Shown: positions 39,369 to 60,419 of the stretch, piece by piece
Layout of the letters: every line of letters starts with the position of its first letter
Position numbering within the stretch: position 1 is the first letter of the stretch
Assembly: GCA_947073545.1 (NCBI GenBank)
Contig: CAMTMP010000001.1
Location: 62,001 to 126,000 of the forward strand
Source of the DNA: an uncultured bacterium
Lineage (GTDB): Bacteria > Bacillota > Clostridia > Lachnospirales > Lachnospiraceae
DNA: 64,000 nucleotides
Direction: 5' to 3'
The notes under the pieces: generated by a model
Databases searched by the model: none
Told to the model about the DNA's origin: nothing
What the model saw: only the letters and a program-made list of their open reading frames with translations
Program-made: the position numbers and the translations under genes

Positions 39369-40484
39369 ATGAGATCCCCAATGGATGAAAACACGTTTAT
39401 GAATTTTTACAAAAACACCGTTCTTGGATATTCTAATAACCTGCAACGGCACATATGCAGGTCATTAGAGGAGCAGCACCGCATTACTTTTGAGGAACAA
39501 AGAAACTTACTGGATCCTGATAAAATCATATATTTTGAATCAAAAAAAGACTTACGGGGTATCCTTTCCCAGACAACTACAAACAAAGATTTCATCGGTT
39601 TTTATGAACACTGGGAATTTGTAAAGCTGTATAAATATTCCGTACCTTTGTTTTATCAGACAGATTCTTCTGAGAGTTTGATAGATATCCTTACAAAATG
39701 CGGAATTACTGAATTTAAGGAGGTATCGTTTGCACCCGAATTTATACTTAATACTTCCCTTCAAGATGCAAAACCTATTTATTTAGCAGAGCAGGATCGG
39801 ATATTTATTAAATTTATACTGCAGAAGACTTATTTTACATCTGATGCGTTTGAACAGACTGATTATCGGTATCCTATTGTATTATATTTTGATCTTCCGA
39901 ACCACTGCCTGGAGATACGCTATGATGCTATTAAATATACAGAGGCGTTTGATAGTGAAATTTACGAAAAGCTAGTGGCCAGCTGTATTGATTGGATAAA
40001 AAAGGAATTAGGTCTTTCTTTATATACATGTGAACATACAGATGCTATAAAAATTGTCAATGATAAACAAAATGAAGATGTAAAAATGTATAAGCAGATG
40101 ATGCAGATGAGTTCCGGAGGTGCCGCAGAACTGACTGCGGCAGAAGGTTCTGATTATGTATTACCTTTCATCGGTGAAATTCGAGAGCTTATTGATGAAA
40201 ACGAGGACTTATTTAATGAGGCTACAGAAATCAAACAATTATTAACGCAATACTTAAATGATAAAGAAGCGACAGCCAGTTATCCTTACATATATGTAAA
40301 ATGGGTAAAACCTGTAGAATCACAAAGTTACATAGTTAAAATAACTTTTGATTACCTGAGCCGTAGATACACTTTATTGCAACACATCACTGGAGGTTGT
40401 AAAGATTTAGGAATGGAGCGAATGAATGATGCAATCAAATATCTTTGCGAAAGCGGTTCCTTTGTTAAAGGAGAAAAAATTTAA
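39369..40484 (+). CDS. Unknown protein, first gene of a putative defence cassette
   Basis: 371 residues; TTAGGAGGAAGC gives a strong ribosome site. The gene is clearly more A/T-rich than the flanking ICE backbone. No signal, membrane helix or motif I recognise: the N-terminal half is mixed alpha/beta (HWEFVKLYKYSVPLFYQTD) and the C-terminal half has an acidic helical stretch (GEIRELIDENEDLFNEATEI) and a final beta/alpha unit. Its end overlaps the next gene by 59 bases, so the two are tightly coupled. In this context it may be a sensor or toxin partner for the nuclease gene; that is inference. Confidence 0.75.
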   Translation: MRSPMDENTFMNFYKNTVLGYSNNLQRHICRSLEEQHRITFEEQRNLLDPDKIIYFESKKDLRGILSQTTTNKDFIGFYEHWEFVKLYKYSVPLFYQTDSSESLIDILTKCGITEFKEVSFAPEFILNTSLQDAKPIYLAEQDRIFIKFILQKTYFTSDAFEQTDYRYPIVLYFDLPNHCLEIRYDAIKYTEAFDSEIYEKLVASCIDWIKKELGLSLYTCEHTDAIKIVNDKQNEDVKMYKQMMQMSSGGAAELTAAEGSDYVLPFIGEIRELIDENEDLFNEATEIKQLLTQYLNDKEATASYPYIYVKWVKPVESQSYIVKITFDYLSRRYTLLQHITGGCKDLGMERMNDAIKYLCESGSFVKGEKI

Positions 40485-40788
40485 TATAGATTATGATGCA
40501 TTAGCTGAATTTCTTGAACGTTACAAGCAAAATGATTGGTTGTATCCAGATGCAATGCACCGTAATCTAAAAATCAGCATAAAAACCATTTATGAGATTT
40601 TAGAATTATGCGTCGAAATCGGGGTGTTGGATCAGTATCTACAGATATACTGTCCACATTGCCAAAAGTATACTGGCCAATATTATAAGACCATTGCAGA
40701 AATACCAGAAGAAATCAGCTGTCTGCATTGTGATTATGAAATACTGAACCCCTTAAACCACGCAATAATCATCTATAAGGTTTTATAA
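40426..40788 (+). CDS. Winged-helix plus zinc-ribbon protein, second cassette gene
   Basis: 120 residues, ATG 40426 with GGAG seven bases upstream and inside the preceding gene. Residues about 22–72 look like a winged helix (ALAEFLERYKQNDWLYPDAM, then ISIKTIYEILELCVEIGVLD). A four-cysteine zinc ribbon follows: CPHC at 76–79 and CLHC at 99–102. The ending NPLNHAIIIYKVL is hydrophobic. The combination suggests a DNA-binding adaptor or regulator for the two flanking genes. The stop TAA is followed directly by the ATG of the nuclease gene. Confidence 0.75.
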   Translation: MMQSNIFAKAVPLLKEKKFNIDYDALAEFLERYKQNDWLYPDAMHRNLKISIKTIYEILELCVEIGVLDQYLQIYCPHCQKYTGQYYKTIAEIPEEISCLHCDYEILNPLNHAIIIYKVL

Positions 40789-41499
40789 ATGGTAAACGAA
40801 TCTGAATTTGTAAAGAAATCAGAAGCCTTTCTGAATGATATCGGGATGACACCAACAGAATGGCTGCTGGCAATGGGAAAATATAATTCTCGCATTTTGC
40901 AGCTTGATAATACAGGCTATAAGAAATTCGCTGAGCTTTATGAAAAAATAGTCAGCAAAGACTTCAAGCTGAGCGATAAGGGAAAATTATTAGAGGACTT
41001 GTCAGCGATACTATTTTATCAAGGCTATCCAGGAATATTAGAGTGCCGGAGAAATCTTCGTACCAGCAGTAATGAGATTGATTTACAACTCTGCTGGACG
41101 GAAAATGCAAAAATGGCGGGAATAGATCGTGCTTTTCCGTTTTTGGAAGAATCTTTTTTGTGTGAATGCAAAAATTATAAAAAAAGCGTTGATGTAACAT
41201 ATGTTGGGAAGTTTTTTTCATTGCTCCATGTTGCTCGCTGTAAAACCGGTATCATGATTGCCTGGAACGGCATAGCAGGGCGTTCTAAATGGAGTGATGC
41301 AAATGGCCTGATCCGAAAAATTGCTTTAAGGGATAACACATATATTATTCCTATTGGAAAAGACGATTTTAAATCAATTTATGAGCAAAAAACTAATATT
41401 TTTTCTATTATACGGGATAAATATTTAGCATTACAAAACGAAATTGATTATTCTGAATATGTCCAGCATCATGAACTTGAATCAGATTTCAAAAAATAA
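40789..41499 (+). CDS. PD-(D/E)XK restriction-endonuclease-like protein, third cassette gene
   Basis: 236 residues, starting immediately after the previous stop. The nuclease core reads KGKLLEDLSAILFYQGY (Glu69 helix), NLRTSSNEIDLQL (Asp98) and FLCECKNYKKSV (Glu126-x-Lys128), a full D-(E)xK active site of the Mrr-like class. A following helix and strand (LLHVARCKTGIMIAWNGI) fit the fold. It probably cuts DNA. The N-terminal 60 residues and C-terminal 50 residues have no recognised domain. Together with the two coupled genes upstream it forms a three-gene module typical in shape of antiphage systems, but I do not recognise a described system with this composition. Confidence 0.8.
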   Translation: MVNESEFVKKSEAFLNDIGMTPTEWLLAMGKYNSRILQLDNTGYKKFAELYEKIVSKDFKLSDKGKLLEDLSAILFYQGYPGILECRRNLRTSSNEIDLQLCWTENAKMAGIDRAFPFLEESFLCECKNYKKSVDVTYVGKFFSLLHVARCKTGIMIAWNGIAGRSKWSDANGLIRKIALRDNTYIIPIGKDDFKSIYEQKTNIFSIIRDKYLALQNEIDYSEYVQHHELESDFKK

Positions 41500-41672
41500 T
41501 ATAGTTTTTTTAACCTTACCAGTTTATTGATTTACAGTGTAGTTAAATAGATACTGTCTAAGGATATGGGAGACTCGTTTAATGACAGACAGAGCTAATA
41601 AGCCGGGTCATTTTACCTGTCTCTTTTTTTGCTTTTATTTTCTGGCACAAAATTGGCACAATCCCGCACGAA

Positions 41673-41719
41673 ATTGGCACGGTTCTGCTCTTTCCCCGTA
41701 AATAGAGATATGCTACACT
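41673..41719 (+). promoter_or_regulatory. ICE transfer promoter A with repeated 30-bp element
   Basis: The 30 bases 41673–41702 (beginning ATTGGCACGGTTCTGCTC) occur again, unchanged, at 59791–59820. Eleven bases later an extended −10, TGCTACACT, is present without a good −35, so an activator at the shared element is likely. Three TTGGCAC/TGGCACA-type copies lie in 41643–41680. It sits about 190 bases before the first conjugation gene. Confidence 0.65.
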
Positions 41720-41763
41720 AAATATGCTTAAAACTGTATCCAGAAGCAATCCGGGCTGGCACG

Positions 41764-41790
41764 GCACCTTTCCTGAGAGGTGCTTTTTTT
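41764..41790 (+). terminator. Attenuator-like terminator in the leader of the conjugation operon
   Basis: GCACCT and AGGTGC form a 6-bp stem with an 8-base loop followed by seven T's, 45 bases after promoter A and 120 bases before the first gene. In this position it would stop transcription unless antitermination occurs. The remaining gap (41500–41911) holds only the promoter and this hairpin. Confidence 0.75.
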
Positions 41791-45559: not shown

Positions 45560-48500
45560 ATGAACCATCAAAATGACCATGATACCTATATCATCCCGCC
45601 GAACTTTGTAGACACGGGCACATTTTTCGGCGGCATGTTCCGGGCAAGGAACGTGATCGAGGCCGGCATCCTTGCCGCCGTGACCGGGCTGCCGGTATTT
45701 TTATTCCTTCCCCTGAGCCTGACCGCGCGGATCATCGTGCTGTGCCTGACCACCTTGCCCCTTGTGCTGTTTGCCCTGATCGGCATATCGGGGGAAAGCC
45801 TGTCGTCTTTCCTAGTCATCTTCTTAAAGTATATGAAGAACCGCCGCATCGTGGGCGGCGAAGGACAGGAAGCCATACGGAAAGCCCCCCGTTCAAAAAA
45901 AGAGAGAAAAAAGCACCGGAAAGGAAAACACAGTAATGAGGAAATTACGGCATCAGAAGATGCCGCCCAAAGTACAAAGCCCGCCGGAAAAAACACTTCC
46001 GGTAAAAATGACAGGATTGGCGGCATATCCGGCTGGAAGCGCAAAGGGGAAGACGATTTTCCCGCAGAGTTCGACCAGGTGAAAGGATATGAGATACGGC
46101 AGAAGCTCCGGCCCAGCCAGACACAGAAAAAACAGCAGGCCGGAACGAAAGCGAAAAAATCTTCCAAAGGAAGTAAGAGGGCATCAGAAAAGATTTCCGG
46201 AAAAAGGACTTCACAAAAAACAGGCCGTCCGGATCGCAGGAACAGCCAGCATAAAAAGAACCGCTCCCCCAGAAAACCTCTGCACACGCCGGAACCCCAG
46301 TTTACCCACTTAAACCCGGTGTCGGACTACCTGCCCATCCGTAAGATAGAAAACGGCGTCATCTATACAAAAGACCACCGGTATGTCAAGGTGGTGGAGG
46401 TGATCCCCATCAACTTCCTGCTCCGGAGCGCCCGGGAACAGAGGAGCATTATCTATTCCTTTGTTTCCTATTTAAAAATAAGCCCCGTAAAGCTCCAGTT
46501 CAAGGTGCTGACCCGCCGGGCGGATATCGGGCGCCACATGGACACGGTGCGCCGGGAGATGGCACAGGAGACCAATGAGCAGTGCCGGCTCATGCAGGAG
46601 GATTACCTGCAGTTCATCCAGCAGATCTGCTCCCGTGAAGCGGTGACGCGCCGGTTTTTCCTGATCTTTGAATATGAACCCTGGGGGAACGCAAGGCGCA
46701 CGGACGAGGAAGGGGAGGCCATCGGTTCTTTGCAGTCCACCGTCCATACTGCATCCAATTATCTCCGCCAGTGCGGGAATGAAGTGGTTCTGCCGGATAA
46801 CGAGGACGAGTTTACCATAGATGTTCTCTATAATCTCCTGTGCCGGAAGGAAAGCGCCGCAAAGCCCCTCCCTGTCCGGGCAAAAGAAGTAGTGGCCCAG
46901 TACATGGCAAATGGAAGGGAGGCGGAAATCGACCATATCCCGGCCGGGGAATTTATCGCCCCCGCAGGCATTGACTTTACCCACGGAAGGTATCTGTGCA
47001 TTGACGGGCTTTATTATGCCTACCTGCTGATCCCCTCCGACGGCTATAAGACCCATGTGCCGGCCGGCTGGCTCAGCCTGATGGTCAACGCCGGGGACGG
47101 GATCGACCTGGACATGTTCCTCTCCCGCCAGCCCAAAGAGCGCATCATCCAGAAGGTGGGCCAGCAGCTCCGCATCAACCGTTCCCGGATCAAGGACGCC
47201 AGCGACACCAACACGGACTTTGACGATATCGACAGCGCCATCCGGAGCGGCTATTTCCTGAAGGACGGGCTGGCAAACAATGAAGACTTTTACTTTATGA
47301 ACCTGCTGATCACCATCACGGCTCCCAATGAAGAGGATCTGGAATGGAAGGTGAGCGAGATGAAGAAACTCCTGCTCTCCCAGGACATGCGGGTATCCTC
47401 CTGCCACTTCCGGGAAGAACAGGCATTCCTCACCGCCCTGCCCCTGGTGTCCGTAGATAAAGGGCTGTATGAGCGCAGCAAACGAAACCTCCTGACCGGG
47501 GGCGCGGCAAGCTGCTACCCTTTCACCAGCTATGAGATGTGCGATGACAACGGCATCCTTCTGGGGGTGAACAAATACAACAGCTCCCTGATCATCGTGG
47601 ATATCTTCAATTCCACCGTCTACAAAAACGCAAACATGGCGATCCTTGGGACCTCCGGTGCAGGCAAGACCTTTACCATGCAGCTTATGGCCTTACGGAT
47701 GAGAAGAAAAGGCATTCCCATTTTTATCATCGCACCGTTAAAAGGGCATGAGTTCCACCGGGCCTGCGCCAACGTGGGAGGCGAATTTATCCAGGTCTCA
47801 CCGGCAAGCCCCCACTGCATCAATGTAATGGAGATCCGGCAGGTGGACCGCACTGTGAACGAACTGCTGGACGGTCCCGGCATCCAGCTCTCGGAACTGG
47901 CAGAGAAGATCCAGCGGCTCCATATCTTTTTCAGCCTGCTGATCCCGGACATGAACCATGAGGAGCGCCAGCTTCTGGACGAAGCCCTGATCCATACCTA
48001 CAACAAAAAGGGCATCACCCATGACAACGCTTCCCTGGCAGATCCAAAAAATCCGGAACAATACCGTGAAATGCCGGTGCTGGGCGACCTTTATGAGATT
48101 TTAAAGAAATCCGCCGCCACCAGAAGGCTTGCAAATATCTTAAACCGCCTGGTGAACGGCTCCGCCAGCACCTTCAACCAGCAGACCAACGTATCTTTAG
48201 ACAATAAATATACCGTACTGGATATCTCTTCCCTGACCGGGGACCTGCTCACCGTGGGGATGTTTGTCGCACTGGATTTCGTCTGGGACCGTGCCAAGGA
48301 AGACCGTACCGAGGAAAAGACCATCTTTATTGACGAATGCTGGCAGCTCCTGTCCGGCGCCGGCGCCACGGGCACACGCCTTGCCGGGGATTTTGTCCTG
48401 GAGATCTTCAAGACCATCCGGGGATACGGCGGCTCTGCGGTCTGCGCCAGCCAGGACTTAAACGACTTTTTCAATCTGGATGAAGGCCGGTTTGGGAAAG

Positions 48501-48766
48501 GCATCATCAACAACTCCAAGACCAAGATCATCCTGAACCTGGAGGATGACGAGGCCATGCGCGTGCAGAGCGCCCTCCACCTCTCCGATGCGGAGATCAT
48601 GGAAGTCACCCACTTTGAACGGGGCAGCGGCCTGATCAGCACCAACAACAATAACATCATGGTGGAATTTAAGGCAAGCCCAGTGGAAAAAGACCTGATC
48701 ACCACGGACCGGAGGGAGCTGAAAGACATTGTGGAGCGGATGCGCCGGCAGAATGAAGCCGGATAG
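45560..48766 (+). CDS. PrgI–VirB4 fusion conjugation ATPase
   Basis: 1068 residues. Residues about 1–100 look like PrgI, a small two-helix transfer protein (NFVDTGTFFGGMFRARNVIE, AAVTGLPVFLFLPLSL). A long Lys/Ser/Arg-rich linker follows (about 108–245), then a VirB4 ATPase (about 250–1060) with Walker A GTSGAGKT (697–704) and Walker B TIFIDECWQL (Asp925, Glu926). PrgI and VirB4 are usually separate adjacent genes in Firmicute ICEs, so this is a fusion. VirB4 powers assembly of the type IV secretion channel. The poly-basic linker may contact DNA or membranes. Confidence 0.9.
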   Translation: MNHQNDHDTYIIPPNFVDTGTFFGGMFRARNVIEAGILAAVTGLPVFLFLPLSLTARIIVLCLTTLPLVLFALIGISGESLSSFLVIFLKYMKNRRIVGGEGQEAIRKAPRSKKERKKHRKGKHSNEEITASEDAAQSTKPAGKNTSGKNDRIGGISGWKRKGEDDFPAEFDQVKGYEIRQKLRPSQTQKKQQAGTKAKKSSKGSKRASEKISGKRTSQKTGRPDRRNSQHKKNRSPRKPLHTPEPQFTHLNPVSDYLPIRKIENGVIYTKDHRYVKVVEVIPINFLLRSAREQRSIIYSFVSYLKISPVKLQFKVLTRRADIGRHMDTVRREMAQETNEQCRLMQEDYLQFIQQICSREAVTRRFFLIFEYEPWGNARRTDEEGEAIGSLQSTVHTASNYLRQCGNEVVLPDNEDEFTIDVLYNLLCRKESAAKPLPVRAKEVVAQYMANGREAEIDHIPAGEFIAPAGIDFTHGRYLCIDGLYYAYLLIPSDGYKTHVPAGWLSLMVNAGDGIDLDMFLSRQPKERIIQKVGQQLRINRSRIKDASDTNTDFDDIDSAIRSGYFLKDGLANNEDFYFMNLLITITAPNEEDLEWKVSEMKKLLLSQDMRVSSCHFREEQAFLTALPLVSVDKGLYERSKRNLLTGGAASCYPFTSYEMCDDNGILLGVNKYNSSLIIVDIFNSTVYKNANMAILGTSGAGKTFTMQLMALRMRRKGIPIFIIAPLKGHEFHRACANVGGEFIQVSPASPHCINVMEIRQVDRTVNELLDGPGIQLSELAEKIQRLHIFFSLLIPDMNHEERQLLDEALIHTYNKKGITHDNASLADPKNPEQYREMPVLGDLYEILKKSAATRRLANILNRLVNGSASTFNQQTNVSLDNKYTVLDISSLTGDLLTVGMFVALDFVWDRAKEDRTEEKTIFIDECWQLLSGAGATGTRLAGDFVLEIFKTIRGYGGSAVCASQDLNDFFNLDEGRFGKGIINNSKTKIILNLEDDEAMRVQSALHLSDAEIMEVTHFERGSGLISTNNNNIMVEFKASPVEKDLITTDRRELKDIVERMRRQNEAG

Positions 48767-51352: not shown

Positions 51353-53370
51353 ACAAGAAAAAATTACTGAAAGGGCTGATCACTGCCCCCATCGCCGTCC
51401 TTGCCATCCTGTATGCGGGCGGCTATCTGGGGCAGTTCATCGGCAACTACGCCCTCTGGAAACAGGGCGGCGGCTATCCGGGGGACGGCACTTCCCCCCT
51501 GTCTCCCTCTCCCGTCCTGTCTGTCTGCCTCCGTGCGGCGGTGCATCCGCCATACGGGATCTACGGGATATTTATCTGCATCGGGCTTCTTGCGGTACTT
51601 CTGCTCCTTATCATGCGGATCGGATACAGCGATACCGGGGAATATGACGAAGACCGGAATTTCACCTATTCCGCCAAAGGCACCTACGGCACGTCCGGAT
51701 GGATGAGCCGTAAGGAAATGGCCGGCGTGCTGGAGCTGGTGTCCGATTTACACAAGTATCAGGGAATTGTTCTGGGCATGCTGGACCGGAAAGCAGTCTG
51801 TGTGCCGGAGAAAACAAGACTCAACAGCAACCTGGCAGTCTACGGCGCCAGCGGCTCCATGAAGACCCGTTCCTTCTGTATGAACCGCATCCTGCAGGGG
51901 GTATCCCGCGGGGAATCCCTGGTGATCTGTGATCCCAAATCGGAGTTATACGAAAAGTCCAGCGAATACCTGCGTGACAAAGGCTATACCGTCCGTGTGT
52001 TCAATCTGGTCAATCCCGAAAACTCGGATTCCTGGAACTGTCTTTCAGAAGTGGAGGGGCAGGAACTGATGGCACAGCTCTTTGTGGATGTCATCATCAG
52101 GAATACCACTGGCGGCGGCAAGGGAGACCATTTCTGGGATTCCGCAGAAATGAACCTGTTAAAAGCACTGGTGCTGTATGTGGACAAGGGCTACCCGCCG
52201 GAGAACCGGAACATGGGCCAGGTTTACCAGCTCATTACCCTCAATTCCGAAACAGCGCTGAACAGCCTGTTTGAAGTCCTGCCCATCAACCACCCGGCAA
52301 AAGCCCCTTACAGCCTTTTCAAGCAGGCATCCGATTCTGTGCGGAGCGGTGTTATCATCGGGCTGGGGAGCCGCCTGCAGGTATTCCAGTCGGAACTGAT
52401 CAAAAAGATCACGGCAAGGGATGAAATCGACCTGGAACTGCTGGGACAGAAACCCTGTGCCTATTTCCTTGTGACCAGCGACCAGGACAGCACCTTTGAT
52501 TTTCTGGCATCCCTGTTTTTATCCTTTGTGTTCATCAAGCTGGTGCGGTATGCGGATAAAAACTGTGAGGGCGGAAGGCTTCCTGTGCCCGTCCATGTAT
52601 TAGGGGAGGAGCTGACCGCCTGCGGAACCATCCCCGACCTCTCCCGGCGCCTGAGCGTGATCCGCTCCCGGAACATCTCCATGTCCTGCGTGTTCCAGAA
52701 CCTTGCGGGACTGCAGAACCGGTATCCGCTGAACCTCTGGCAGGAGATCTTAGGGAATTGTGATGTCCAGCTCTTTCTGGGATGCACTGACCCCCTGACT
52801 GCGGAATTTGTCTCCTCCCGTACCGGACTGGCAAGCGTGGCAGTCTCCAGCAAGTCCAAGCAGTTAGGAACCTGGCGGATCTCCAACTACACGCCGGAGT
52901 ACCGGGAGACCAGCGGTGTGGGAAAGCGGCCTGTGCTGACGCCTGATGAAGTGCTGCGCCTGTCCATTGATGAAGCTCTGGTCATCATCCGTGGAAAGAA
53001 GACCTTAAAGGTGGATAAGATGGATTATTCCAAACATCCGGAATATCCCCTGCTGCGCTCCTGCAAGGCATCCGCTCATATCCCGGAATGGAGACGGCTG
53101 GAAATGGAAACGGCTGCCCCACCGGAACCGGCCATAAAGCCCGCTCCACAAAAAGGAGTTACAACGCAGGCAGGAAAAACAGCTTCCAGACCCACCCCAA
53201 AGGCAGGGACGAAGCCCGTCACAAAAGGGAATGCAAAGACACCGGCACCGGATGCACAGCAGAAAGCATCCTCTTCTTCGGCAGCCATGCCGAAAAAGGA
53301 TTCCCCTGCCGCATCTTCCGGCACGCCTGCCGGGATCGTATCCACGGACAGGGATTCCATCATGTCCTGA
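51349..53370 (+). CDS. VirD4/TraG-like type IV coupling protein (AUA start)
   Basis: 673 residues if read from ATA 51349, eight bases after a perfect AAAGGAGG. An in-frame TGA lies at 51331, and no ATG, GTG or TTG occurs in frame until GTG 51541, so the track's 609-residue version would lose the first membrane helix (LITAPIAVLAILYAGGYLG). A second helix (IYGIFICIGLLAVLLLLIMR) precedes the ATPase: Walker A GASGSMKT (166–173) and a Walker B region VHVLGEELTACGTIPDL, where the usual DE pair reads GEE. It links the relaxosome to the type IV channel. The Pro/Lys/Ala-rich tail after about 580 is probably an unstructured docking segment. Confidence 0.9.
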   Translation: MDKKKLLKGLITAPIAVLAILYAGGYLGQFIGNYALWKQGGGYPGDGTSPLSPSPVLSVCLRAAVHPPYGIYGIFICIGLLAVLLLLIMRIGYSDTGEYDEDRNFTYSAKGTYGTSGWMSRKEMAGVLELVSDLHKYQGIVLGMLDRKAVCVPEKTRLNSNLAVYGASGSMKTRSFCMNRILQGVSRGESLVICDPKSELYEKSSEYLRDKGYTVRVFNLVNPENSDSWNCLSEVEGQELMAQLFVDVIIRNTTGGGKGDHFWDSAEMNLLKALVLYVDKGYPPENRNMGQVYQLITLNSETALNSLFEVLPINHPAKAPYSLFKQASDSVRSGVIIGLGSRLQVFQSELIKKITARDEIDLELLGQKPCAYFLVTSDQDSTFDFLASLFLSFVFIKLVRYADKNCEGGRLPVPVHVLGEELTACGTIPDLSRRLSVIRSRNISMSCVFQNLAGLQNRYPLNLWQEILGNCDVQLFLGCTDPLTAEFVSSRTGLASVAVSSKSKQLGTWRISNYTPEYRETSGVGKRPVLTPDEVLRLSIDEALVIIRGKKTLKVDKMDYSKHPEYPLLRSCKASAHIPEWRRLEMETAAPPEPAIKPAPQKGVTTQAGKTASRPTPKAGTKPVTKGNAKTPAPDAQQKASSSSAAMPKKDSPAASSGTPAGIVSTDRDSIMS

Positions 53371-53440: not shown

Positions 53441-55051
53441 ATGACAAGAAAAAAAGAAGTTATGGAACTGGAAAACCCTGCTATGGAAGGGAATACCCCT
53501 TTGGACGGAACGGACACAGAGGCCGGGGCTTCTCCCGCTGAAGGAGACAGCGCCCTGACGGAAACAGACGGGGACGGCATGGACTTAAATGAACTGCTGG
53601 GCAGCATGGACCAGGAAGCGTCTGCCGAGCCGGAGACAGAGTCCGGAATGCTCCCGGAGCTTACGGAGGATGAGATATTTGGGGAAATGCCGGAAGATAT
53701 GGATGGCTCTGATGCTGTACACGGCACGGACGAAGATGCCGGCGGCTCCGATGAAGCACAGCCGGGATCAGTATCCGCTCCTGAAACAGAAATTCCTGCT
53801 GCAAAAGGAAGACGCGCCACACGCAGAAAAAAAGAGGAATCCCCTGAAAAAGCTGACGGAGAAACACAAAAAATGGAAACCGAAATGCCGGGCCCCTCTG
53901 AAACGGTTTCTGACGATGTACCCCATTCCCCGGATGCTTCTGTCATTCCCGATACAGACGGGCCGGCAGAGCATGCCGCAGATGAAGCGGCAGAAACCGT
54001 TCCCCCGGAAGATATGGAACCCGCCAGGGCAGAGCCGGGAGAAACGGATCTCCCCTCCGGGGAAAACACAGCCACAGCTGTGGCCACACCCAGTCCCGCA
54101 TCTCCTCCCTCCCGGCGTTCCGCAGGCAGGGGAAGAACAGAGGATGTCCCTGTGCTGACATTGGAAGTACGGGGAGAAGTGGAAACGGAGGAGTCCCGTG
54201 AGGATACCATCTGGCATGAGATCCACAATGCCTACCGCACCAGGCGCATCCTTACCGGGCAGCTTGGCGGGATTGAGCAGACAGACAATGGCAAGACCAT
54301 TTCCATCGTAGACTATAAGGGATTCCGCATTGTGATTCCCTTAAAGGAAATGATGATCAATATCGGCCGCAGCCCCTCCGGACAGGAATATACGGAGCTG
54401 ATGCTGCGCCAGAACAAGATCCTCGGCAACATGCTTGGGGCAGAGATCGACTTTATCGTAAAAGGCATTGACTCCAAATCCCGCAGCGTGGTGGCAAGCC
54501 GGAAAGAGGCCATGCTCCGGAAACGGCAGATCTTCTATCTGGATACGGATGCTGCAGGGATGTACCGGATCTATGAAGGACGTATCGCCCAGGCCCGTGT
54601 GATCGCTGTGGCAGAGAAAGTCATCCGGGTGGAAGTTTTCGGAGTGGAATGCTCCATCATGGCCCGCGACCTTGCCTGGGAGTGGATCGGGGATGCCCAT
54701 GAACGTTTTTCTGTGGGTGACCAGGTGCTTGTACGCATCCTGAACGTGCGCCGTGACAGCCTGGAGGATATGGGGATCAAAGCTGATATCAAGAGCGTAT
54801 CCCAGAACACCAGCCACGACAACCTGAAAAAATGCCGCATCCAGAGCAAGTATGCCGGCAAGGTCACGGACGTACATAAAGGTGTGGTCTATATCCGGCT
54901 CTCCAACGGCGTCAATGCGGTGGCCCACTCCTGCTATGACTATCGGACTCCCGGCAAGAAGGATGATGTGAGCTTTGCCGTGACACGGCTGGATGAAGAA
55001 CGGGGCGTGGCCGTGGGGATTATTACACGGATTATTCGGCAGAACTTATAA
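53441..55051 (+). CDS. ICE acidic protein with C-terminal S1-like RNA-binding domain
   Basis: 536 residues. The first ~240 residues are acidic and Pro/Glu/Asp/Thr-rich with little structure. After a middle domain (IWHEIHNAYRTRRILTGQLG, FRIVIPLKEMMINIG) come two OB-fold-like regions. The last (CRIQSKYAGKVTDVHKGVVY, IRLSNGVNAVAHSCYDYRTP) is a good S1 domain. An S1-domain protein in a transfer operon could bind RNA and thereby affect translation, or antitermination at the leader hairpins seen in this element. The role is inferred. It is the last gene before the antisense cargo gene. Confidence 0.8.
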   Translation: MTRKKEVMELENPAMEGNTPLDGTDTEAGASPAEGDSALTETDGDGMDLNELLGSMDQEASAEPETESGMLPELTEDEIFGEMPEDMDGSDAVHGTDEDAGGSDEAQPGSVSAPETEIPAAKGRRATRRKKEESPEKADGETQKMETEMPGPSETVSDDVPHSPDASVIPDTDGPAEHAADEAAETVPPEDMEPARAEPGETDLPSGENTATAVATPSPASPPSRRSAGRGRTEDVPVLTLEVRGEVETEESREDTIWHEIHNAYRTRRILTGQLGGIEQTDNGKTISIVDYKGFRIVIPLKEMMINIGRSPSGQEYTELMLRQNKILGNMLGAEIDFIVKGIDSKSRSVVASRKEAMLRKRQIFYLDTDAAGMYRIYEGRIAQARVIAVAEKVIRVEVFGVECSIMARDLAWEWIGDAHERFSVGDQVLVRILNVRRDSLEDMGIKADIKSVSQNTSHDNLKKCRIQSKYAGKVTDVHKGVVYIRLSNGVNAVAHSCYDYRTPGKKDDVSFAVTRLDEERGVAVGIITRIIRQNL

Positions 55052-55106
55052 CTTTCTGAGAATAAAGCGGAGCCGCTATAGAATGGCGGCTCCATTTTAT
55101 CTTGAA

Positions 55107-58100
55107 TCATTCTTGATTATCAATCATATTAAATATAAATCGAATATCTTGATGATTCGCTTTATATAGACTATCCCATATATCAAGGCACATGTTTTTA
55201 ATATTAGAATTATTTTGCCCTTTATCAAATAAACGTATTATACAATGAATAAAATTATTCATATTTAAACTTTTCATTTGCTCTGGCTCCAGCAAGGGAA
55301 TTTTATCTCCAACAGTTTTTAAGATATCTGCAAATTGTACAATGTCCATAACCTTTTCATCCAGATATTTTAAAAAATCATTTATCAAGTATCCTCCTTG
55401 GTTGGAATTCATCAAACAAATTAAAAAACCTTTATCTCTTGGTAATTCAATTTCAGAAAAAATCCGTCTAAGGTCATTTATCTCATCTTTAAACTTATCA
55501 ATAAAATGTATTATGATCTTTTCACTCAGATTATGAAATTCCTCCTTATTAAATGAAGATATTGCTTGTTGACAGACTTTACTTACTTGCTCTATTGTAT
55601 ACTGATATGACATAACAAAATTCTGCATCTGAGTATCGTTAAAATATATTGCAATAGCACAGCTCTGTTTAGCTGCCTCATCTGCAAGTTCTTCAAAGTT
55701 TGACTTGCAAGCAGAAATTATCCTTTCTCGGTAGAACTCAGAATCATGAGAATAATCTCTACTTATGATATTCCATGTGGCAGGTATACCAAGAATACGT
55801 GAATCTTTCGAAACAATCTTCTTAAATATTCTAACAGAAAAATCGGAATCAATATCATAATAAACCAAAGCGCTCTGCATAACAGCCATGCGAATTAAAT
55901 CATGTGAACTTTCACTTGCACTTATAATAATCTGTTTAAATTTATTCCCAAATTCTGGATGATTTGAAATTATTGCAGCAATAGCCCATAACGCACAACC
56001 ATTTACATTGCTTATTGAAGCATTATATAAGTCTTGTGGTGAATAATTAAACGACTCCTTTTTATTTCTACTTTCATAAAGATTATATTCTGAATCAGAA
56101 AATTCTAATGCAAACCCATTTAAAATATCAAAAATATCCTGTGGCCATTCTTGATCTGCATATTTCTCTATTAAATTTGTAATTGCAATACCCACACTAT
56201 GGCTTGATGTGTGTTTATAATAACGTATCACTTCCATGACTAATTCCATATCAATGATACATTCTTCATTTGAATATTCCATAAGTGCATTTAATACACC
56301 ACAAATATACCCACTATAACACTCCTTAGGAAAAGATAATGAAAGTTTTGCAAAATGTAAAGGTTTCTTTTTAGCTTGCCTGGAAAATGTATTAGCAAAT
56401 GTAAAATGGGAGGCTTCTATATAACATTCATCAGTTTCTTTTCCTCTTGAAAAATCTTTCATTTTTTCATTTGGTGTTTTAATAATATTTAACCATGTCT
56501 TGTCACTCAATCTATCAGCATACATGCTAACTGGAGAAGAGACTGCCTTTATAGGACCTGATAAGATCCCAGAGCAATAATTTGCTGTTTGTATACAGTG
56601 GTTTCTATTCAAAACATTTAACAAGTTTTGTGCATATGAAGACAAACGTGCATTATCCATATAAGGGAGTAATTCCTTTTGAAAACGTCCCCAATATGTA
56701 TAATACATGGCATCGAGAGGATGTTCTTTATTCATTCTTAACCGACACCTATAAATTTCTACCGTTCTTTTGACATCATCTTTCCAAGAACATATCCTTT
56801 CTTCCAATTCTTGAAATAATTCCGTTCTACATACAGATGAAAATTTTTGAATGATATGTTTTGTATATTTTAAATTGTCTTTTTCGGATGTATACACAAA
56901 AACCCTATACCTGAAATCAGACAAAAGCCATTCAATAGCATCATCACTATACGTTATTGGAAGTTCACCTATAGCATACATAATTATTTCATTGCCAACT
57001 ACAGATTTAGGATAATCCTTATTCTTCAAAAATAACAGCATTCCTACAGGCTCTTTTTTTGCAAATTCTGCAAATGCCATTTTCATCAATTCCACAATTG
57101 TTCTGACACATGACTCTTGATGAAGCCTCGGAAACCAAGCCTTGTACTTATTCCAATATTCCAAACTTAGACGTTCAGCAGAAAATGCTGGCGTCTCTTT
57201 ACAAATTTCTATAAATAATTCATTGACAAATAGCATGTAATTAGAAGTAACAAAGAATTTTGTATCATTTTCATCTCGAAAGATGACATCTTGAAATTTG
57301 TGCGCTATTTTGTTTTGTATGATTATTTTCATAAGTTGAACTGCCCGAAGGGCAGGACAATTTTTTAGAAAGACAAGAGATTTAAAATCTCTAAATATTT
57401 CAGGTGAATGTTTAAGCAATTTTATTCGAAATTCAAACATTTTCTCGGAATCACCCTTTAAATCTCCACATAAAGTATTGAAGATTTTTTTATCATCATG
57501 CAAATTACTACATCCGTATGGATATAGTTTTTCTGTCACAAAATCGGGGTCTTGATATTGTATTGATTTCAGTAAAAATAATCCTTCGCTTCCAAACCAA
57601 TTATATGATGGTATCATATCTAACTGCTTGATAAATACAGGATGTCCATAATAAACGGTTTGGATAATATAATTGTGCCATTCTGCCTTTTCAAGATAGG
57701 ATTCTGTAAATACATGAATAGCTTTATTTGGTGCTTCACATTGACCAATCGTTTCAAAGATTGCACATTTAAAATAATGTCTTATAGTATCTGAAACAAG
57801 CATGGTTTCACATTGCTTTAAAAACATATTTTTATCAGAATCAAGCAATGTTTGTAATATAATTAAAAACTGATAACGCAATTTAGGAGTTTGATTATCT
57901 CTAACACCCAAAATATCTGTCAATTCTACTCCTGAATATATATCCCTCATAGCTTTATATGCAATAAAATAATCCAGAAAGCTTTGATGAGTAAATGCTA
58001 TTGTATTTTCATTCCTAACTAACAATCCCTCCGAAATCAATAAATTTATTACTTTCTGCTTATTTTCAAACAGCATATATGGAAGTACAAATACAGCATT

Positions 58101-59660
58101 ATCATTCATTTTTGTCACAATATCATTTTTGCATTCAGTTACTTCCGCTTCTGATAAATGATTATCTATAGTGCAATTTTCCAGTATCTGTTTCCACCAT
58201 GTTTGCATCAACTGGTTCACAGACGTAATCGAATTTTTTCTTTCCTGTTTATTTAAGTGCGACCATACATACAATGAAGACGGTGTTCGTAATAATACCT
58301 TTAACCTTGTTGATAATGTACTATAATCAGACCCAACTGCTGTTTTAACATCACTATCACAAAGCAGGCCAACTTCTACTTTTTTCCAAAAGTAATTGCT
58401 GTCATTTTTTATATTAGAAAATAGCGATTGCAAACCTCTATCAGTTTCAAGATCAAAAGTTCGTGATACAAATACCACTGATATTTTTCCATTTTCATAT
58501 TTGTTAATATCATTGGCCTGGGATATCATTTCTTTGCATACATCTAACGCTACTGCAGAATGCCTCCCTATCCAACGCAGAGCATCAAGTTGATCCAAAA
58601 TCAACACACAGTTTTTTCCTGCTGATAATGTATGCAGACAATATATTGGCGACTCTGGCAAACCCAGTTTTTGTCCAAATTCATCTGCAGATGTATCTGG
58701 TACAAATTTATCTAATTTTATCCCCAGATATAATATCTGCGACTTTTGTAAAAACTCCATAATTTCCTGAATACATCCACTTTTTCCAACGCCGGCCTTC
58801 CCATGTATAATAAGAGAATTGCCCTGCATAATCTGATTTATTGTAAAATCTGTTTCCTTTCTATGAATGAGTTGATTATTGATAGCTTTGAATGTTCCCC
58901 AATATATTTCATTTAAAGTAGTAATCCTGTTTAGCACTCTATTGTCATGATGATAATTACGAACAGATATACCATGTCTTTCAGTAATGTATGCAATAAC
59001 ATCATTTGCCGTTATTTTAATTCCAAAACTTCCAGTATCATTTGCGTATTGTTCAAGTAGATTTCTTATGGTAGATGTCTTACCTGTAAAAATTGTTCCT
59101 ATACGTCCTTCTAAATCTCGCCTTTCCTCTTCTCCAATCGAATAATGTTCAAAATAACAATGAGCAAGTATATAGATAAGATTCTTTAATTCCTGTGGAT
59201 TATTTCTGTCGAGGCTATAGTGTTTTTCGCATTTACTAAATACTGTTTCAATTTTAGGATTATTTATTTGATACGCCAAAAAGTCTTGTGCTGACGAATT
59301 TGTTCTTGCTCGTTTACAAAGTTCATCTAATTCACCATATTGCAATGGGGAAATAAAGTAATAATACTTTTTGTCTCCGCTTTCAATATGCCTCTTAGAT
59401 CGTTTAAAAACATCATGGCGTTGAAGATCAGACATTGTCCATGAACCGTGTGTTGTATTACTTGCTTTACATTGATAGTAATTTTGATTTCCATGTGCAT
59501 CTGTGCTTATAAACTCAACACCTTCCCCTTCAACACCTAACGGTTCTACTTCCACAGAAACAATTTCTTCGTTTATAAGTCTAAGTAAAAGTTTCGCCAA
59601 ATAGCGATTTTCATATTGATTTCCATACTTATCTGCTCGTCCTCCGCTTTCTAAACTCAT
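55107..59660 (-). CDS. Avs-like STAND NTPase with N-terminal PD-(D/E)XK nuclease
   Basis: 1517 residues on the opposite strand to the ICE operon and much richer in A/T. Residues about 1–180 form a Cap4/Mrr-like nuclease: GRADKYGNQYENRYLAKLLL, then Glu49 in VEF and Gln63-x-Lys65 in YYQCKAS. The STAND NTPase core has Walker A GKAGVGKS (287–294) and Walker B CVLILDQLDAL (Asp356), followed by a STAND-type helical segment. The remaining ~1000 residues are helical repeats, the presumed ligand-sensing arm. Size and order match Avs (AVAST) antiphage proteins, which recognise conserved phage proteins and then cut DNA. The exact Avs class is not assignable by eye. Confidence 0.85.
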   Translation of the reverse strand: MSLESGGRADKYGNQYENRYLAKLLLRLINEEIVSVEVEPLGVEGEGVEFISTDAHGNQNYYQCKASNTTHGSWTMSDLQRHDVFKRSKRHIESGDKKYYYFISPLQYGELDELCKRARTNSSAQDFLAYQINNPKIETVFSKCEKHYSLDRNNPQELKNLIYILAHCYFEHYSIGEEERRDLEGRIGTIFTGKTSTIRNLLEQYANDTGSFGIKITANDVIAYITERHGISVRNYHHDNRVLNRITTLNEIYWGTFKAINNQLIHRKETDFTINQIMQGNSLIIHGKAGVGKSGCIQEIMEFLQKSQILYLGIKLDKFVPDTSADEFGQKLGLPESPIYCLHTLSAGKNCVLILDQLDALRWIGRHSAVALDVCKEMISQANDINKYENGKISVVFVSRTFDLETDRGLQSLFSNIKNDSNYFWKKVEVGLLCDSDVKTAVGSDYSTLSTRLKVLLRTPSSLYVWSHLNKQERKNSITSVNQLMQTWWKQILENCTIDNHLSEAEVTECKNDIVTKMNDNAVFVLPYMLFENKQKVINLLISEGLLVRNENTIAFTHQSFLDYFIAYKAMRDIYSGVELTDILGVRDNQTPKLRYQFLIILQTLLDSDKNMFLKQCETMLVSDTIRHYFKCAIFETIGQCEAPNKAIHVFTESYLEKAEWHNYIIQTVYYGHPVFIKQLDMIPSYNWFGSEGLFLLKSIQYQDPDFVTEKLYPYGCSNLHDDKKIFNTLCGDLKGDSEKMFEFRIKLLKHSPEIFRDFKSLVFLKNCPALRAVQLMKIIIQNKIAHKFQDVIFRDENDTKFFVTSNYMLFVNELFIEICKETPAFSAERLSLEYWNKYKAWFPRLHQESCVRTIVELMKMAFAEFAKKEPVGMLLFLKNKDYPKSVVGNEIIMYAIGELPITYSDDAIEWLLSDFRYRVFVYTSEKDNLKYTKHIIQKFSSVCRTELFQELEERICSWKDDVKRTVEIYRCRLRMNKEHPLDAMYYTYWGRFQKELLPYMDNARLSSYAQNLLNVLNRNHCIQTANYCSGILSGPIKAVSSPVSMYADRLSDKTWLNIIKTPNEKMKDFSRGKETDECYIEASHFTFANTFSRQAKKKPLHFAKLSLSFPKECYSGYICGVLNALMEYSNEECIIDMELVMEVIRYYKHTSSHSVGIAITNLIEKYADQEWPQDIFDILNGFALEFSDSEYNLYESRNKKESFNYSPQDLYNASISNVNGCALWAIAAIISNHPEFGNKFKQIIISASESSHDLIRMAVMQSALVYYDIDSDFSVRIFKKIVSKDSRILGIPATWNIISRDYSHDSEFYRERIISACKSNFEELADEAAKQSCAIAIYFNDTQMQNFVMSYQYTIEQVSKVCQQAISSFNKEEFHNLSEKIIIHFIDKFKDEINDLRRIFSEIELPRDKGFLICLMNSNQGGYLINDFLKYLDEKVMDIVQFADILKTVGDKIPLLEPEQMKSLNMNNFIHCIIRLFDKGQNNSNIKNMCLDIWDSLYKANHQDIRFIFNMIDNQE

Positions 59661-59790
59661 TGCTATCTCCTCTTATATAAATAATATCTTTAATGCAATT
59701 TCCAATATAATTGAATTTTATCACACGAACATTGATATTTCTACAAGGTTATCATGCTAAAAATATTTCATAAAAATAAATTGGCACAAC

Positions 59791-59837
59791 ATTGGCACGG
59801 TTCTGCTCTTTCCCCGTAAAGGCATCCATGCTATACT
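59791..59837 (+). promoter_or_regulatory. ICE transfer promoter B, repeat of promoter A
   Basis: Bases 59791–59820 are identical to 41673–41702. Eleven bases on, an extended −10 ATGCTATACT matches ATGCTACACT of promoter A. TTGGCACA repeats precede it, as at A. It lies between the Avs-like gene (transcribed away) and the Tad-like genes and drives the latter. Confidence 0.65.
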
Positions 59838-59861
59838 TGGTACAGTCAAAAATATGTAAAG

Positions 59862-59895
59862 CAGCCGTTTTCCATCCGGGGAGACGGCTGTTTTT
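59862..59895 (+). terminator. Attenuator-like terminator in leader B
   Basis: CAGCCGT pairs with ACGGCTG around a 15-base loop and is followed by TTTTTATC. As at promoter A, the hairpin sits between promoter and first gene, about 25 bases before the TTG start, so transcription must pass it to express the pilus-like genes. Confidence 0.75.
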
Positions 59896-59918: not shown

Positions 59919-60419
59919 TTGTCCCAAACAATGTCCAAAGCTCCCGGCAGAGCCTCTCCCTGTAAAGGCAGATCCTGCAGGAGTCCGACAGCCATACTGA
60001 AAAATGAGCGCGGGGATGTCAACTACTTCAGTACCGTGGTATTCATCTTCATTGCGGTGCTCCTGCTGGCTTTCATCCTGAACCTGTTCAGCATCATCTC
60101 CACCAAACAGGAGCTGGATCACTGTGCAGACCAGATGGTGAAACAGATCCAGCTCTCCGGAGGGATCAACGGGGAAACAGATCAGCTTTTTCAGTTCCTC
60201 TGTTCTCAGATCGAGGGGGCTGAAAATATCTCCTATACCATTGACACCTCCTACAAGTCGCCCACCCCGTCCGGCATGAGCCGGGCCATCCAGCTGGGCA
60301 CCCCTTTTTACATCACCATCACGGGCAGGGCAAAGCTGGGAGGCTTCTGGAACTTCAACCTGGTGAACATCACGGTTGTCTCCAGAGGGGCAGGCGTCAG
60401 TGAGCATTACTGGAAGTGA
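59919..60419 (+). CDS. TadE/DUF4320-like pilus-assembly protein
   Basis: 166 residues, TTG start (GGCGGTGG ten bases upstream). After a basic, Cys-containing N-terminus comes a pilin-like segment (ILKNERGDVNYFSTVVFIFI) with one membrane helix (FIAVLLLAFILNLFSII) and a soluble beta-rich domain. The G/D at the helix start and the length fit TadE-like minor pilins and DUF4320 proteins in Firmicute ICEs. It overlaps nothing and leads the second transfer operon segment. Confidence 0.75.
   Translation: MSQTMSKAPGRASPCKGRSCRSPTAILKNERGDVNYFSTVVFIFIAVLLLAFILNLFSIISTKQELDHCADQMVKQIQLSGGINGETDQLFQFLCSQIEGAENISYTIDTSYKSPTPSGMSRAIQLGTPFYITITGRAKLGGFWNFNLVNITVVSRGAGVSEHYWK

Follow-up and report, generated by a model that had tools for sequence, protein, structure and literature searches.

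The gene at positions 55107-59660 (minus strand) of the window, by which we mean the whole 64,000-nucleotide stretch of Lachnospiraceae DNA that was analysed, very probably (roughly 80%) encodes an NLR-like immune receptor that works as a single protein and travels as cargo on a conjugative element, between two of its transfer units, with a mechanism proposed below. This reading draws on an intact 1517-codon frame with all motifs in place and residues conserved across phyla; on a profile match to a solved structure (PDB 9n00), a PDC-M54A match in every homologue tested and a low dN/dS; and on empty sites, the presence of CBASS, AbiL, AbiE, Hachiman, Septu-like and PDC-S50 genes in the corresponding slots of relatives, and the defence-like neighbours of some homologues.

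A STAND protein with an N-terminal nuclease-type region

The reading frame starts with ATG and runs through 1517 codons without an internal stop; a stop-free run of as many composition-matched codons would arise by chance with a probability of ~8e-60. The first-pass annotation had described a gene of 1517 residues that is transcribed opposite to the transfer genes and differs strongly from them in base composition. Both descriptions are borne out in this exact frame, with a GC content of 0.316 and a GC3 of 0.23 in the STAND gene versus 0.53-0.56 and 0.60-0.73, respectively, in the transfer genes alongside. The motif positions named earlier (E49, Q63-C-K65, G287 to K293-S294, D356) are likewise all found on the translation.

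Three regions can be delineated, all on the minus strand: a PD-(D/E)XK-like nuclease region (residues 1-250, 58911..59660), a STAND NTPase core (residues 251-650, 57711..58910) and a C-terminal region, predicted to be all-helical and a putative sensor (residues 651-1517, 55110..57710). The first of these is supported by an alignment of the N-termini of 11 homologues, together with a profile match to the PDB 9n00 chain (E 2.1e-4) and a Cap4_nuclease match in one member. E17, E39, Q63 and K65 are invariant in the alignment, and every sequence has either D or E at position 49, so that the homologues have in common the motifs GGxADKxGNxYE, D or E at 49, and QxK. In the core of 10 aligned homologues, A289, G290, G292, K293, D356, Q357, D359, R400 and H558 are invariant, giving a signature of Walker A (287-294), DQxD (D356-Q-L-D359 in the window protein), R400 and F-x-H (F556-x-H558). 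Together these residues are what one would expect to see if a PD-(D/E)XK nuclease preceded a STAND NTPase.

Pfam recognized only AAA_22 in the protein (residues 279-399, E 7.7e-7, above cut-off), with weak matches to nSTAND models and nothing stronger. With this match, the conserved G287-S294 and D356-Q-x-D359 and the tripartite layout, profiles and motifs keep the core among the STAND-type P-loop NTPases rather than outside them, and the previously proposed nuclease-STAND-helical sensor architecture stands. AlphaFold2, given two close sequences, returned only helices at low confidence for residues 641-1517 (877 residues, pLDDT 46) and reached a pLDDT of 36 for residues 1-640; both predictions are too poor to build on. 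HEAT-like weak matches were seen in the C-terminal region of one homologue. The gene thus encodes a real STAND nuclease-type protein, the nuclease being called from residue conservation and weak profile matches.

Proteins of ~1500 residues with this order of PD-(D/E)XK-like nuclease, STAND NTPase and helical C-terminus have representatives among the Clostridia, Rhizobiaceae, Planctomycetota and Chloroflexota. One relative (87%) is in L003, another Lachnospiraceae genome bin. Among 393 Clostridia genomes searched, seven besides the window's own match at E <1e-15; five of these seven are at or below 1e-240, and in three the full length is covered by one open frame. Homologues are also present on chromosomes and on plasmids (Isosphaeraceae, Rhizobium, Sinorhizobium, Herpetosiphon), away from conjugative elements of this kind, and some adjoin defence-like genes, as judged by reading the sequence of the neighbours. 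Inspection by eye of the genes next to the homologues revealed no conserved partner, and a search of viral contigs and phage records found no relatives. Between the window and L003 copies, dN/dS is 0.16, with its minimum in the nuclease region (0.10); values this low indicate purifying selection and hence selection on function.

Some copies are interrupted or damaged. In G297 (contig 37; L051:2203-8080 and L052:3087-3647) the homologue is split after the nuclease region by a ~17 kb insertion holding a serine-recombinase-like gene, transfer-like genes and ABC/two-component genes, and the homologue on contig 22 of G899 (L099:6619-10955), with an in-frame TGA and further frame breaks, is likely a decayed copy. 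Downstream of the sister gene in L003 lies a 138-aa ORF (L003:4884-5300) that has no counterpart at the window copy.

A slot for exchangeable cargo between two transfer units

The STAND gene is flanked on both sides by co-oriented plus-strand transfer genes. To its left, an S1-domain gene (53441..55051; Pfam S1, E 6e-12) closes a type IV secretion (T4SS) unit that includes a VirB4/TraG-type ATPase (45560..48766; Pfam P-loop_TraG) and a VirD4-type coupling protein (51541..53370; Pfam T4SS-DNA_transf, E 1.3e-48). To its right, a DUF4320/TadE-like gene (59919..60419; Pfam DUF4320, E 6.7e-19) opens a Tad/Flp pilus locus with a prepilin peptidase, RcpC and a T2SSE ATPase. Both neighbours keep their positions in relatives. 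The VirB4-like ATPase and VirD4-like coupling protein are those looked for in an integrative and conjugative element, and from these transfer genes we infer that the element is one; no relaxase, integrase or attachment site was recognized among the window and downstream genes scanned.

Searching with the flanking genes recovered 10 further element copies that have both neighbours on the stretch read and five that have one. The slot is empty in three sampled relatives (G544, G566 and G490), where the flanking units lie 188-314 bp apart; the gap between the S1-domain gene and the TadE-like gene is 314 bp in G544 and 188 bp in both G566 and G490, which look like carriers of one and the same element. 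Elsewhere the gap holds AbiL with CBASS (G023 C49, where two frames share the Cap4 gene between them), Hachiman (G466), a PDC-S50 gene accompanied by DUF4365 and RelBE-like genes (G038, the RelBE name being read from sequence), AbiL-like pairs (G701 and G724) or a RES gene together with Xre-like and Rpn-like genes (G023 C1, the latter two named from sequence), so that toxin-antitoxin genes are among the contents as well. The stretches with one neighbour carry AbiE (G007 and G665), AbiL with a Cap4 remnant (G034) and a Septu-like PtuA/PDC-M01 pair (G650). Cargo is mostly antisense to the transfer genes, the exceptions being G701 and G724 (sense) and G023 C1 (mixed). The slot thus has the marks of a defence hotspot, the same flanking genes enclosing either nothing or diverse defence genes. 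The proposal that the STAND gene was inserted between two transfer segments is upheld by the empty sites: there the two segments do adjoin, contrary to the case that would have counted against it.

Two further observations concern the occupants. The slot of G716 holds a lone 363-aa gene (L069:2626-3717) that matches no Pfam or PADLOC family and is a candidate new defence gene. Four relatives (L044, L047, L048 and L068) have Rpn-like PD-(D/E)XK genes, named from sequence, in the slot, and these might promote recombination there.

That the STAND gene is transferred cargo, as suggested at the outset, is well supported by the empty sites, the unrelated genes in the same gap elsewhere and a GC content far from that of the flanks. 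Alternatively, the element could have had the gene from the beginning, with deletions giving rise to the empty sites, and the small number of empty states sampled, three with two of them seemingly one element, leaves some room for this; it is nevertheless very improbable given the unrelated genes that fill the same gap in different relatives, the GC content far from that of the flanks and the fact that, among the sampled relatives, L003 alone has the STAND gene as well. Synonymous divergence between the window and L003 is lower for the STAND gene (dS 0.37) than for VirD4, VirB4 and the S1 gene (0.61-0.67), which would fit an exchange of cargo between elements after their flanks had diverged, but is only suggestive, as the strongly deviating base composition of the gene also affects dS.

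The occupants of the slot also bear on what the STAND protein might act against. Its gene rides on a conjugative element, beside the transfer genes, and it could therefore defend the element and not the cell, through exclusion of a competing plasmid or conjugative element. We regard this as unlikely, since for most of the genes that fill the slot in relatives the known or proposed target is phage, and since chromosomes and plasmids encode homologues of the STAND protein at sites unconnected with such elements.

Borders of the cargo and a second slot

The left border of the cargo lies just past the stop codon of the S1-domain gene and is followed in the window by a terminator-like hairpin (55069..55093, plus strand, z -5.5). 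On the right, an alignment of 13 loci, empty sites included, showed that conservation starts at TTGGCAC repeats and continues through a promoter-like stretch, a leader and the start of the TadE-like gene, with little shared upstream. In the window this region (59781..59895, plus strand) contains a stable leader hairpin with a T-run (dG -24.1, z -5.2) ahead of the pilus unit. With the hairpin on one side and the promoter-like region on the other, the STAND gene appears to separate two units and not to interrupt a single operon, and the flanking units are predicted to be transcribable without the cargo. The earlier placement of the gene inside the conjugation operon therefore holds in that it sits between transfer segments, but the location is between two separately promoted units, and the sequence features at both borders suggest that no operon is broken.

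Because the gene adjoins the promoter-like region of the pilus unit, it might also be taken for a regulator of conjugation or pilus expression and as such a part of the element's machinery, a role made scarcely credible by its absence from nearly all relatives of the element and by homologues far from conjugation genes. The promoter-like region was also considered for a sigma-54 promoter, TTGGCACGG-TTCTGCT, and this was rejected, as the GG-GC spacing is one base short (sites read by hand) and -10-like TATACT/TAAAAT lie downstream. The element encodes an S1-domain, RNA-binding protein (53441-55051) and has hairpin leaders before transfer units (59781-59895), and a link between the two through antitermination is possible.

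The repeat at 59784 is found again at 41666, upstream of the T4SS unit, where the TTGGCAC promoter-like region occurs a second time together with a leader (41653..41790, plus strand); the hairpin of this copy is unexceptional against shuffles (z -1.2). A second cargo slot (39369..41499, plus strand) holds low-GC genes including an Mrr_cat nuclease (40789-41499; Pfam E 1.7e-5). The corresponding gap is empty and 202-373 bp long in G566, G701, G724, G038 and G544, and is filled with Xre-like, ImmA/IrrE-like (names read from sequence) and 635-aa genes in G716. The claim of two nuclease-bearing loci in one element is thus sound, and both look like cargo slots. Ahead of the Mrr-like gene, a 371-aa low-GC gene (39369-40484) matched no Pfam or PADLOC family.

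Proposed mode of action and relation to known systems

The window protein probably works like the Avs proteins, and its biochemical function is proposed by analogy to them. In such a scheme the helical arm would bind a phage protein, ATP-dependent oligomerization would then bring the nuclease domains together, and the assembled complex would cut DNA and abort the infection. The element, for its part, would keep cargo at two sites that separate its transcription units. Each would lie immediately ahead of a promoter that is complete in itself, and insertions there should leave the transfer genes undisturbed.

If the immune-receptor reading is right, a wide-ranging and little-studied family of STAND nucleases joins the bacterial NLR-like receptors, and the slot is a fixed address at which conjugative elements of gut Lachnospiraceae may store and exchange anti-phage systems. 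A survey of the slot across genomes could turn up more defence systems through guilt by association; the 371-aa gene at 39369 and the 363-aa gene in L069 are cases in point. The layout of the slot also illustrates how transfer genes can tolerate cargo. Going further, the ~1500-residue family may be an AVAST-like type that has yet to be described and that answers to a phage trigger of its own, and the element family may offer two built-in docks for cargo. Each dock would precede an attenuator-like transfer promoter with TTGGCAC repeats, and would perhaps be filled with the help of the Rpn-like PD-(D/E)XK genes of the slot; we offer all of this tentatively, with the odds against it.

The nearest known entries are the PADLOC candidate PDC-M54A and one solved structure. 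PADLOC matched the window protein to PDC-M54A at E 2.4e-14 (residues 238-567, the ATPase region only), and 10 of 10 homologues tested match it in the NTPase region as well. The candidate (PDLC04702, PDLC04700) is alike in total length and NTPase region, but only ~330 of 1621 profile positions are matched by the window protein, all in that region, and its name implies a multi-gene system whereas no partner gene was seen within the window. The 'AAA family ATPase' of 1523 aa in PDB 9n00/9n01/9yix shows a profile match over residues 6-669 (E 4.6e-49), with an additional weak matching stretch near the C-terminus.

Avs1-Avs4 are distinguished by activation through a phage terminase or portal protein. 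Avs (AVAST) proteins recognize phage proteins, the effector being a nuclease in Avs1-Avs4 and Sir2 in Avs5, and their order of effector, STAND NTPase and C-terminal sensor is that of the window protein (PMC12931631). The description of the gene as Avs-like is apt for this layout and does not extend to placement in Avs1-Avs4, for which PADLOC gives only PDC-M54A: its Avs models did not match the window protein at E up to 1, and two homologues gave weak Avs2 matches (E 0.025-0.038). By profile and domain content the protein differs from Avs1-5; a Sir2 effector of the Avs5 type was not matched, and the N-terminus has nuclease-type motifs instead. A relation to Cap4, also raised in the first-pass annotation, found little backing, with Pfam Cap4_nuclease (PF14130) matching just one of 11 homologues (E 0.0043) and not the window protein, and a direct profile comparison (hhalign) with the Cap4 N-terminus from the CBASS cargo of L046 giving no match.

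The slot resembles the defence hotspots of P2-like phages and P4-like satellites, in which fixed flanks enclose interchangeable anti-phage systems (PMC9122126). What sets it apart is its place in a conjugative element of Lachnospiraceae, with the T4SS unit on one side and the Tad pilus unit on the other, as well as a mostly antisense cargo that borders on a TTGGCAC promoter-like region with a leader hairpin. An earlier description of the slot or of the two-slot arrangement was not found in the literature searched, which had most subscription papers outside its reach. Of the findings, this layout with two slots in one conjugative element of Lachnospiraceae is more of a surprise than the protein itself.
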